37,722 nucleotides of DNA from Clostridiaceae bacterium. Its GTDB lineage: Bacteria; Bacillota; Clostridia; DUPQ01. Below are positions 28,262 to 34,800 of the stretch, piece by piece (within the stretch, counting starts at the first letter, position 1; each line of letters opens with the position of its first letter). Below the pieces are notes generated by a model, which worked only from the letters and a program-made list of their open reading frames with translations, had not been told where the DNA came from and searched no databases. The position numbers and the translations under genes were made by a program. The stretch spans positions 1 to 37,722 of the forward strand of contig JAAYBX010000086.1 of the NCBI GenBank assembly GCA_012729955.1, written 5' to 3'.

Positions 28262-30127
28262 TTATGCCTTATCAAATACCAGGCATGCCTTGAACAGATC
28301 ACCTTCTATTTCTAAAAGCATCGCGCCTTTCATTATTTCTGTCAGGCTTTTGGCTATTGACAGTCCTAACCCGCTGCCTTCACCTGTTCTTGATGAATCA
28401 CCTCTTACAAAACGTTCCATGAGTTCATCTGCAGATATATTCAGTTTGTACTTTGAAACATTTTTAAAGCAGATCCTTACACGATTGAGTTGCTGTTCAA
28501 CAGTTATATATGCCCTTGTCCCAGGCTGGGAATATTTACAGATATTTTCCAGCATGTTATCCATTACTCTCCATATGAGACGTCCGTCAGCTAAAATATG
28601 AATATCACTGCTAAAATCATTCATCACTGGTTCTATATCATTCTCAGTAAGTTTTGTGGAGTATTCGCCTATAGCCTGATTCATTATCTCTTTCAGATTC
28701 AGCTTTTCCATATTAGCAGTTATGACTCCTGATGTGGCTTTTGACGCTTCGATAAGATCATCTGTGAGTTTTTTCAGTCTTGCGCTTTGTCTTTTGAGTA
28801 TCTCAATATATTCTTTCGATGTAGCATCATCAATATTCTGCCTGTCCAGTAAGTCCACATAGTTGATTATTGAGGTTAAAGGCGTTCTTATATCATGCGA
28901 TACATTAGTTATGAGTTCGCTTTTAAAATGTTCGGATTTCATTTTTTCATTTATCGCGTTGGACATCCCTTTGGAAATATTATTTAGATTCTCTGCATGC
29001 TTTTTGAAATCATTCAGCATATATCTGTTATCTATCCTGTAGTTCAGATTACCGAGTGATATCGCTTCTCCGCCCTTTTTTATCTTTATCATGTTAAGGG
29101 CTGCAAAGCAGGACAATACCACTACAGCTATCCTTATCATGAACCAGAAAAATACCGGAGTGAAGCTTCCTCTTGCCATGAAAAGCATTAGAATGAGCTC
29201 AATAAACGATACGAATCCGATTACAAGGAGCAGTTTCCATATAAGCGGTATCTTGGACAAAATCTTCCATATGAATCTGAATATCCCTCTTGCAACTATG
29301 TATACAAGCGTGTTTCTAAACAGTGTCTTTAGCTTTATCCTTGCAGCGAAACTTACAGTCAGAACCATAAGCGCTAAAAATATGAATGCGAATCCGAAAG
29401 ATAAAAGCATTACAAGCGCTTCATACATATATTCCGAGTACAAGGCCCTGGCAGGCTCCTGAATTACTAAAACAGCTAATGCTATCATTCCTCCAATAAG
29501 AAGTATTAATAAGTCAAATGGTATCTTATCAATAAAACCAGGTTCAAACTTGTCATGCTCCTTCTTACGTGCAGCAGAATATATAAGATATATGAATATG
29601 AGGATAGTCATTACCAGAGAGACTGAAGCTAAGGGTATTAGCATGTTTCTCGTCTTGTATGCGAAATTATATAGATTATACGGAAAACGGTAGTCATCTG
29701 ATGCTGATATATCCTTTTTCACATAAGCAGTCATAGTATAACCGCCTTGGTTAATAGCAAAAGGGACTTTATATCCATATTGCGCTGTATAGCTGGAAAG
29801 AATAATTTTTCCCGAATTATCTGTGATTTCAAAAAAGAAGTTTGTATTTTCCTCTGAATAATACTGCATATAATCCTCAAGAGCCTGCTCATCGGGGTAT
29901 GCAGAAATGTACTGCGTAAAATATCCGTTATATACATCCATGGCATAATCTGTGGTAATATCAGAACATATGCTGCTTTTAAAGAAAGCCATATCAGGAT
30001 TTCTGTCAATATCATATGTTTTTATCAAGACAGAAGAAGTGACTGCTACTGTAAATGTAAGTGCGGTAATTGTAATAAGAAGATAAGCCAGTACTTTTGT
30101 TAACAAACTGTTACTCATGTTCTTCAT
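28262..30127 (-). CDS. Membrane sensor histidine kinase
   Basis: A 621-residue kinase. A first membrane helix (about 10-35) and a second (about 160-185) flank an extracytoplasmic sensor region of roughly 125 residues. Four more hydrophobic segments follow (about 203-223, 237-260, 298-318 and 325-345), so the total is about six. The H box has phospho-acceptor H411 in NVSHDIRTPLTS. The N box is DNMLENICKYS and the G2 region GEGSGLGLSIAKS. The canonical G1 DxGxG is missing; FKNVSKYKLNIS stands in its place, a variant seen in some Firmicute kinases. It follows its response regulator by three bases with AGGG upstream of the ATG. The signal is unknown. Confidence 0.88.
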   Translation of the reverse strand: MKNMSNSLLTKVLAYLLITITALTFTVAVTSSVLIKTYDIDRNPDMAFFKSSICSDITTDYAMDVYNGYFTQYISAYPDEQALEDYMQYYSEENTNFFFEITDNSGKIILSSYTAQYGYKVPFAINQGGYTMTAYVKKDISASDDYRFPYNLYNFAYKTRNMLIPLASVSLVMTILIFIYLIYSAARKKEHDKFEPGFIDKIPFDLLILLIGGMIALAVLVIQEPARALYSEYMYEALVMLLSFGFAFIFLALMVLTVSFAARIKLKTLFRNTLVYIVARGIFRFIWKILSKIPLIWKLLLVIGFVSFIELILMLFMARGSFTPVFFWFMIRIAVVVLSCFAALNMIKIKKGGEAISLGNLNYRIDNRYMLNDFKKHAENLNNISKGMSNAINEKMKSEHFKSELITNVSHDIRTPLTSIINYVDLLDRQNIDDATSKEYIEILKRQSARLKKLTDDLIEASKATSGVITANMEKLNLKEIMNQAIGEYSTKLTENDIEPVMNDFSSDIHILADGRLIWRVMDNMLENICKYSQPGTRAYITVEQQLNRVRICFKNVSKYKLNISADELMERFVRGDSSRTGEGSGLGLSIAKSLTEIMKGAMLLEIEGDLFKACLVFDKA

Positions 30128-30130
30128 CGG

Positions 30131-30823
30131 TTAACCCTGCCTTTCCATCTTGTATCCCTGCCCCCATACGACTTTGAAATATCTTGGTTCTGCAGGATTT
30201 ATCTCGATTTTTTCCCTTATGTGCCTTATATGCACAGCGACAGTATTTTCCGCACCATAGGGTTCATCTTTCCAAACTTCTGAATAAATCTGCTTTGTGG
30301 AATAAACCTTTCCAGGATTCTGCATAAGAAGCTTCAGTATATCAAATTCTATCGGTGTCAGGCTTATCGGTTCTGATGCCACGGTTACTGTTTTTGCATC
30401 ATCATCAAGCTCGATATCTCCTATCTGTATTACGGATTTCGGTTTGGTTTCAGCTCCGAGCTGCATATATCTTCTCAATTGGGATTTTACCCTGGCAAGT
30501 ACCTCTACCGGATTGAATGGTTTGGTTATATAGTCATCTGCTCCTAAATTAAGGCCAAGCACTTTATCATTATCTTCGCTTTTTGCTGTTAAAAGTATAA
30601 TGGGAACATTGCTGATTTTTCTTATTTCCACCATAGCGGTAATTCCGTCTACATCTGGCATCATTATATCCAATAGCACCAGATGTATCTTGTTTTCTTT
30701 AATAATTTCTACCGCTCTTTTGCCGTTATAGGCTGTAAAAGTTTTGTAGTCATCTGAAGATAGGTAAATCTTTAATGCAGAAACTATATCATAATCGTCA
30801 TCACAAATAAGTATGTTGTACAT
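30131..30823 (-). CDS. OmpR/PhoB-type response regulator
   Basis: A 230-residue regulator. The receiver domain has acidic D8-D10 (ICDDDYD), phospho-acceptor D52 in LLDIMMPDVDG, the signalling Thr in LLTAKSED and Lys in ITKPF. The C-terminal winged helix (about 130-228) has the OmpR pattern, with LTPIEFDILKLL, then VYSTKQIYSEVW and NTVAVHIRHIREKI. Phosphorylation by the adjacent kinase presumably controls DNA binding; targets are unknown. The ribosome binding site is AAGGAG six bases before the ATG. The 80-base gap between it and nrdG has no convincing promoter. Confidence 0.93.
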   Translation of the reverse strand: MYNILICDDDYDIVSALKIYLSSDDYKTFTAYNGKRAVEIIKENKIHLVLLDIMMPDVDGITAMVEIRKISNVPIILLTAKSEDNDKVLGLNLGADDYITKPFNPVEVLARVKSQLRRYMQLGAETKPKSVIQIGDIELDDDAKTVTVASEPISLTPIEFDILKLLMQNPGKVYSTKQIYSEVWKDEPYGAENTVAVHIRHIREKIEINPAEPRYFKVVWGQGYKMERQG

Positions 30824-30903: not shown

Positions 30904-31422
30904 CTAAAAATCAGCATTTACATCATCATATCGGCTCAAAACAACCTTATTCTCCTTATAAGACTGCTTCACATCAATTATCCTTTGATTTTTGGATCCT
31001 TTATATGTAAGCCTCTCATCTTTTTGTTCAATTATAAAGGGACTATCGACAAGAACATCAACATAATCCAAAAGAGCCTTTTTATTTTTATCAGCCGTTA
31101 TCTGCTCATATGTGTACCCTGAATATGCCCATACGTTCAGACCTTTATTGATTGCTGCTTTTGCAACAGGTATTAGTTCCAAAGGCTGCATAAAAGGCTC
31201 ACCTCCTGATAAGGTGATGCCTCTTTGCAATTTGGATTCATTAATGTATTTAATAATATTATCTGCTTCTTCTAAAAATCCGCCATTTACGTCATGGGTG
31301 TTGGGATTATGGCAACCTTTGCAGTTATGCAGACAGCCTTGTGTCCAAATGACAATTCTCAAACCAGGGCCGTCAACTGTGCTGTCCTTTATGCAATTAG
31401 AGGACAGCCTTATCTTATGCAT
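30904..31422 (-). CDS. nrdG: Anaerobic ribonucleotide reductase activating protein
   Basis: A 172-residue radical SAM enzyme that creates the glycyl radical on NrdD. The cluster motif CxxxCxxC is at C30, C34 and C37 (TQGCLHNCKGCHNP). TLSGGEPFMQP is the SAM-binding GGE motif. It is longer than the E. coli protein (about 154 residues) by a small C-terminal extension. The start ATG at 31422 overlaps the nrdD stop by eight bases, so translation is probably coupled; upstream in-frame codons lie inside nrdD. Confidence 0.94.
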   Translation of the reverse strand: MHKIRLSSNCIKDSTVDGPGLRIVIWTQGCLHNCKGCHNPNTHDVNGGFLEEADNIIKYINESKLQRGITLSGGEPFMQPLELIPVAKAAINKGLNVWAYSGYTYEQITADKNKKALLDYVDVLVDSPFIIEQKDERLTYKGSKNQRIIDVKQSYKENKVVLSRYDDVNADF

Positions 31423-33757: not shown

Positions 33758-33766
33758 AACTCTCTC

Positions 33767-33782
33767 TCCCAATATGTAGTGT
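33767..33782 (-). promoter_or_regulatory. NrdR-like box, proximal to nrdD
   Basis: The plus strand reads TCCCAATATGTAGTGT, matching 13 of 16 positions of the published NrdR box consensus acaCwAtATaTwGtgt (from memory). It overlaps the nrdD ribosome binding site in DNA. Its start is 33 bases from that of the second box, about three helical turns. Confidence 0.6.
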
Positions 33783-33799
33783 CCGTTACCGGATCGTAA

Positions 33800-33815
33800 A
33801 CACAATACTTAGTAT
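33800..33815 (-). promoter_or_regulatory. NrdR-like box at the nrdD transcription start
   Basis: The plus strand reads ACACAATACTTAGTAT, matching 13 of 16 positions of the NrdR consensus. It spans roughly -5 to +12 relative to the start predicted from the adjacent promoter. NrdR is a Zn/ATP-cone repressor of ribonucleotide reductase genes; no nrdR gene is in the window. Confidence 0.65.
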
Positions 33816-33817
33816 TT

Positions 33818-33846
33818 AGTATATTGCGAGGTTTTTTATTTTGCAA
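33818..33846 (-). promoter_or_regulatory. Promoter for nrdDG
   Basis: Minus strand: TTGCAA (33841-33846), 17-base spacer, TATACT (33818-33823). The predicted start is near 33811 and leaves a leader of about 54 bases containing both NrdR-like boxes. Confidence 0.65.
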
Positions 33847-33862
33847 TAGAGTTTTAAAAGAA

Positions 33863-33882
33863 AAACAAGAAATTTCTTGTTT
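33863..33882 (-). terminator. Palindromic terminator between rsmA and nrdD
   Basis: A perfect 20-base palindrome (AAACAAGAAATTTCTTGTTT) followed on the minus strand by TT, C and TTTT, and on the plus strand by an A and TTTTTT. It ends the transketolase-tatD-rsmA unit about 70 bases after the rsmA stop. The stem is A/T-rich, so strength is uncertain. Confidence 0.5.
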
Positions 33883-33951
33883 ATTTTTTAACACTGGAAT
33901 ATTAACATTTTATGTTCTAAAAAGATGCTGTGAGACAGTTATTGATTTACA

Positions 33952-34800
33952 TTATTTGTTTTTGAGTCTGTACAATTCCCAGGACAGTTTTGCAAACTGC
34001 TCTATGGATAATGATTCCGCTCTGGCATCAGCTCTTATATCCATCTTTGTCAGCATTTCTTCCACAGCTTCTTTGCTTGTGTTGAATGAAGACATTGAGG
34101 CAATACAATTTGAGAGCTTTTTGCGTCTCTGCGAAAAACCGGCTCTGACCACAGAAAAGAAAAATTCCTCAGAAGGAACATCAACCAGCGGTTTGTCCCT
34201 TTTCACAAACTTCAACACTGTACTTGTAACCTTTGGTGAAGGTATAAAGCTTTCAGGCGGGACATTAACAACGAAAGATGCATCATACCGGTAACTTACA
34301 TATATTGTGAAGCTTCCATATACCCTGCTCCCTTCTTTTTCGCATATCCTGTCTGCTACCTCTTTTTGCATCATAAAAACCATTAAATCAGGAATATTTT
34401 CTTCTTCAAGAAACTTGGCTATAACCGGAGTGGTTATATAGTAAGGCAAATTGGCAACCGTCTTGTATCTGCAGTTACAACCTAATAGGCTTGATATATC
34501 TGTTTTGAGGATATCTTTATTCACTATCTCAACATTGTCATGCTTTGCAAGAACTGCAGTAAGGGGCTTTATAAGATCCTGATCTGTTTCAACTGCATAC
34601 ATCTTTTTACATAAAGGTGCAATAAGAGCTGTTATAGCGCCTGTTCCGGAACCTACCTCGATCACAATATCTTCTTTATTAAGATTAAGTGCTTCCACAA
34701 TTTTCAAAGCTATTGATTTGTCTATAAGGAAGTTCTGCCCTAAGGCTTTCTTTGCCCTTATATAATTCGGAAGAGGTATTATATTATCTACATTCTTCAT
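33952..34800 (-). CDS. rsmA: 16S rRNA dimethyladenosine transferase
   Basis: A 282-residue enzyme (KsgA) that dimethylates A1518 and A1519 of 16S rRNA during small-subunit maturation. AKKALGQNFLIDKS is the diagnostic N terminus, VIEVGSGTGAITALI binds SAM, and VANLPYYITTPV is the catalytic NLPYY motif. A C-terminal helical domain ends with the usual SFSQRRKKL-type segment (here GFSQRRKKLSN). The ATG overlaps the tatD stop as TGATG. The tatD-rsmA order is frequent in Firmicutes. Confidence 0.95.
   Translation of the reverse strand: MKNVDNIIPLPNYIRAKKALGQNFLIDKSIALKIVEALNLNKEDIVIEVGSGTGAITALIAPLCKKMYAVETDQDLIKPLTAVLAKHDNVEIVNKDILKTDISSLLGCNCRYKTVANLPYYITTPVIAKFLEEENIPDLMVFMMQKEVADRICEKEGSRVYGSFTIYVSYRYDASFVVNVPPESFIPSPKVTSTVLKFVKRDKPLVDVPSEEFFFSVVRAGFSQRRKKLSNCIASMSSFNTSKEAVEEMLTKMDIRADARAESLSIEQFAKLSWELYRLKNK

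Follow-up and report, generated by a model that had tools for sequence, protein, structure and literature searches.

Two 16-bp palindromes in the leader of nrdD and nrdG, the class III ribonucleotide reductase genes of a Clostridiaceae bacterium, very probably form an NrdR operator pair through which the nrdDG promoter would be repressed at high dATP. NrdR is a widespread bacterial repressor that shuts off the synthesis of DNA building blocks when dATP is plentiful. This reading draws on the boxes themselves, their phased spacing, their conservation in the genus, the presence of an nrdR gene, a second pair at the nrdJ promoter and a matrix built from boxes outside the genus. NrdR binding, nucleotide control and the blocking of initiation at this promoter are what we infer by analogy with other NrdR operators. 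The window referred to below is the whole stretch of DNA analyzed, 37,722 nucleotides in length.

Layout of the nrdDG leader

Between rsmA (33952-34800) and the nrdD ATG (33757) there are 194 nt, within which the pair lies. Read along the minus strand, the order of elements is TTGCAA, 17 nt, TATACT, 2 nt, ATACTAAGTATTGTGT, 17 nt, ACACTACATATTGGGA, GAGAGAGTT and ATG (Table 1). The sequence-only reading had put both boxes downstream of a TTGCAA-N17-TATACT promoter, one of them over the predicted start and the other overlapping the nrdD ribosome binding site, and each of these placements stood up to closer analysis. The hexamers, at 33846-33841 and 33823-33818, are invariant in congeners. The distal box begins 2 bp past the -10 hexamer, which places the expected start (about 33810-33812) within it; the proximal box, which ends 9 bp before the nrdD ATG, would occupy about +29 to +44 relative to that start. 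The proximal box ends in GGGA, four bases that it shares with the Shine-Dalgarno sequence GGGAGAG. Here the 3ʹ end of the box deviates from the consensus (GGGA vs GTGT), and the same replacement of the half-site end is found in 4/4 species of the genus; GGGA is probably conserved because it doubles as the Shine-Dalgarno sequence.

Table 1. Features of the nrdDG region, in window coordinates
Feature	Position	Strand	Basis
-35 hexamer TTGCAA	33841..33846	-	Pattern scan; identical in 4/4 species of genus
-10 hexamer TATACT, 17 bp from -35	33818..33823	-	Pattern scan; identical in 4/4 species
Predicted transcription start, 6-8 nt after -10	33810..33812	-	Inferred from promoter geometry
Distal NrdR box (putative) ATACTAAGTATTGTGT, 13/16, C4 and G13	33800..33815	-	Direct reading; 10/16 positions invariant in congeners
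Inter-box spacer, 17 bp	33783..33799	-	Length 17 in 4/4 species; 4/17 positions identical
Proximal NrdR box (putative) ACACTACATATTGGGA, 14/16, C4 and G13	33767..33782	-	Direct reading; 13/16 positions invariant in congeners
Shine-Dalgarno GGGAGAG of nrdD	33764..33770	-	Direct reading; about 8 nt before ATG
nrdD, class III anaerobic ribonucleoside-triphosphate reductase, 780 aa	31415..33757	-	NCBIfam NF005497 1123.9 bits, TIGR02487 603.8 bits
nrdG, radical SAM reductase-activating protein	30904..31422	-	TIGR02491 153.1 bits, cut-off 126.1; ORF coordinates

Both genes score above the cut-offs of curated models, and the nrdD product carries an N-terminal ATP-cone. nrdG begins with an ATG that overlaps the 3ʹ end of nrdD, so the two genes very likely make up a single operon. 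On the same strand after nrdDG (28262-30823, minus) are a response regulator and a histidine kinase, which are VanR/VanS-like, with scores below curated cut-offs. Between rsmA and nrdD, a perfect A+T-rich inverted repeat, ACAAGAAATTTCTTGT, is followed by T-rich DNA (33861-33887, minus); rsmA transcription may terminate here, the repeat having too high an A+T content to register in the terminator scan.

Paired boxes, their conservation and a second pair at nrdJ

Boxes were scored against a symmetric consensus, ACACWAYATRTWGTGT. The two sites were first reported at 33767-33782 and 33800-33815 with 13 of 16 matches each; the coordinates stand, as does the score of the distal box, and the proximal box in fact matches at 14/16. 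Their starts are 33 bp apart with a 17-bp spacer, and the approximately three helical turns originally noted are fixed in four species. At such a score one box is unremarkable; the pair is not. Across the 2.28-Mb genome, sites with at most three mismatches number 77 on the forward and 65 on the reverse strand, and a reversed-pattern control gives 150 and 144. Since such sites are this common, a lone box proves little, and the single-box genome scan was dropped as evidence, the reversed control outnumbering the real pattern. This abundance of single matches at 13-14/16 is also what speaks for coincidence, that is, for two such matches arising by chance in an A+T-rich leader. However, when the leader was dinucleotide-shuffled 20,000 times, an equal pair at spacers of 14-17 never arose, and the chance explanation, refuted by the genome-wide pair search and by conservation in three congeners, has a negligible probability.

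For the pair search, a core pattern (ACWANNTNTWG) was required twice at in-phase spacing. Only two places in the 2.28-Mb genome carry such a pair, the nrdD and nrdJ promoters; the 178 single-core matches in the genome would be expected to give approximately 0.03-0.04 pairs by chance. At spacers about half a turn longer (off-phase) or about one turn longer, the paired core occurs nowhere in the genome. The search is a specificity test and not a blind prediction, since its core pattern was designed with the sites already known. Within the window, the nrdD pair is the only one scoring at least 24. Matrix scores, an early suggestion for checking the boxes, also favor them: with a matrix from nrdD-promoter boxes outside the genus, themselves chosen with the same consensus, the pair reaches 24.4 compared to 5.1 for the runner-up among independent in-phase pairs in the window. 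A four-turn alternative that uses an overlapping site at 33822-33807 (spacer 24) was rejected as weaker, matching at 11/16 and without G13.

The expectation that the same type of pair would precede other nrd genes was borne out at nrdJ, which encodes a class II reductase. At its promoter, ATACAATATCTAGTAC and ATACAAAATATAGTTT are separated by 16 bp; the first of them overlaps the likely -10 (TACAAT), and the proximal box is free of Shine-Dalgarno overlap. This pair was first noticed by reading the nrdJ promoter, before the genome-wide pair search. One congener (G003) has two nrdJ copies (L073 and L075) with identical promoter boxes; a mixed assembly is possible, with contamination estimated at 6%. 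The best single NrdR-like site of the genome under study, ACACAATATATAGTAT with one mismatch (G000:C49:16145-16160; L042:1146-1161), is approximately 160 bp upstream of rpmH-rnpA, and a similar palindrome, ATACTATATGTAGTAG, is found in a congener (L087), also 333 bp before rnpA. A search for an in-phase partner of the rpmH-rnpA palindrome gave no clear candidate.

Conservation was assessed in a four-species alignment of this genome and three recovered congeners. The promoter hexamers are identical at 12/12 positions and the 17-nt promoter spacer at 6/17, and DNA upstream of the -35 is identical at 28/105. The boxes are identical at 23/32 positions (10/16 distal, 13/16 proximal) versus 4/17 for the sequence between them (Fisher p = 0.0015). 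The inter-box length is 17 bp in all four species while the sequence has diverged, and C4 and G13 of both boxes, four G-C pairs in total, are invariant throughout. Two sites contacted by protein and held at a fixed phase would be expected to leave such a pattern in the alignment. Directly after the distal box, TTA (33797-33799, giving TTGTGTTTA) is also invariant in 4/4 species, whereas nearly all of the remaining spacer is not.

The repressor gene and alternative readings

A search for nrdR in the genome, also proposed at the outset, recovered one gene (G000:C130; TIGR00244, 184.9 bits, cut-off 124.65), located away from nrdJ and following a helicase-like gene. The predicted protein is a canonical NrdR that aligns nearly end to end with solved NrdR structures and has a zinc ribbon, an ATP-cone and intact D15, R17 and RRRR26-29. 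The last three contact DNA in S. coelicolor NrdR (PMC9110341), and they are likewise present in the NrdR of two congeners; the third congener, whose genome is 78% complete, gave no nrdR match. Autoregulation of nrdR was considered and dropped, as no convincing box pair precedes the gene in three species.

Could selection act on RNA or core promoter function alone, with the boxes kept through their overlap with the start region and the Shine-Dalgarno sequence and NrdR not involved? The shared GGGA of the proximal box and the position of the distal box against the -10 are in line with such an origin. However, palindromic positions outside the Shine-Dalgarno sequence are conserved too, the 17-bp spacing is fixed while the spacer sequence diverges, and at nrdJ the same type of pair recurs with its proximal box off the Shine-Dalgarno sequence. 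An RNA element in the nrdD leader was rejected separately, with no Rfam family matching above its gathering score, and selection of this kind is very unlikely to explain the boxes. A different regulator that recognizes A+T-rich palindromes, for example one that responds to redox state or oxygen and controls anaerobic genes, is an even less probable occupant of the two sites. Against it stand the paired geometry and the C4/G13 positions, both specific to NrdR, and the finding that genome-wide the pair is carried by the two reductase genes only; what another regulator would account for is the TTTA after the last G of the distal-box TTGTG, conserved in 4/4 species and only partly explained by NrdR.

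Proposed repression and its relation to known operators

In the NrdR operator model, an NrdR tetramer carrying dATP together with ATP (or ADP) would grip both boxes at high dATP. Two pairs of zinc-ribbon domains would contact the boxes on one face of the DNA, about three helical turns apart, and kinking of the DNA at each box would keep RNA polymerase off the promoter. This scheme follows established NrdR biochemistry, in which binding of the dATP/ATP-loaded tetramer to the two boxes kinks the DNA and denies access to the promoter (PMC9110341). The clamp would span the start site (distal box) and the early transcribed leader (proximal box). By analogy, occlusion of initiation is the likeliest blocking step; another possible one is a halt to elongation at an early stage. 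When dATP falls, ATP-only NrdR oligomers would leave the DNA and nrdD-nrdG would be transcribed; through the second pair, nrdJ would come under the same repressor.

Published spacing rules bear on how well the pair fits. NrdR binds boxes with spacers of 14-17 and 24-27 bp, best at 15-17 bp; in vivo, repression is seen with 15-17 bp and with about 26 bp (PMC12051234). The 17-bp spacer found here is at the upper limit of what is usual, and S. pneumoniae NrdR bound a 17-bp spacer about 8 times worse than one of 16 bp (PMC12051234). Additionally, a change at C4/G13 costs S. coelicolor NrdR 50- to 100-fold in binding (PMC9110341). The proximal operator and the Shine-Dalgarno sequence could also act as one shared element, with the same bases setting the strength of the box and of translation; the operator might then be weak on one side and nrdDG repressed less tightly than nrdJ. 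This arrangement is conceivable, though rather unlikely.

The closest known counterpart is the Listeria monocytogenes nrdDG operon (PMC12051234), also class III, in which a pair three turns apart overlaps the polymerase site and the proximal box is near the ATG. There the spacer is 16 bp and box 2 ends 13 bp before the ATG, compared to 17 bp and 9 bp here, so a box close to the nrdDG ATG is already known. Unlike in L. monocytogenes, the predicted -10 here precedes both boxes, and the proximal box shares Shine-Dalgarno bases. The nrdRJ operator of Streptomyces coelicolor (PMC9110341; PDB 7p37, 7p3f, 7p3q) likewise consists of two palindromes with C4/G13 about three turns apart, and its NrdR has the same D15, R17 and RRRR motif. 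However, nrdR is co-transcribed with nrdJ in S. coelicolor and separate here, where the region upstream of nrdR showed no box pair. Streptococcus pneumoniae, another species of Bacillota, also has NrdR boxes on its nrdDG promoter (PMC12051234), at four-turn (25 bp) instead of three-turn (17 bp) spacing.

Among other Clostridia, most nrdD genes examined carry a similar upstream pair at three-turn (15-17) or four-turn (25-26) spacing. The four-turn nrdD pairs (25-26 bp) occur in Pumilibacter-like Clostridia (L032, L033, L034, L035 and L036) and a few others, as in Streptococcus; this genus has 17 bp.

The nrdDG pair is an ordinary, if well-supported, instance of known NrdR operators, and its value is one of annotation and not of surprise. 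For a lineage known, in the records examined, from metagenome-assembled genomes, it provides a confident regulatory annotation in which one repressor would act at two operators, one on each of the two reductases of the genome (class II and class III), and the published rule on NrdR-box phasing gains cases from Clostridia.
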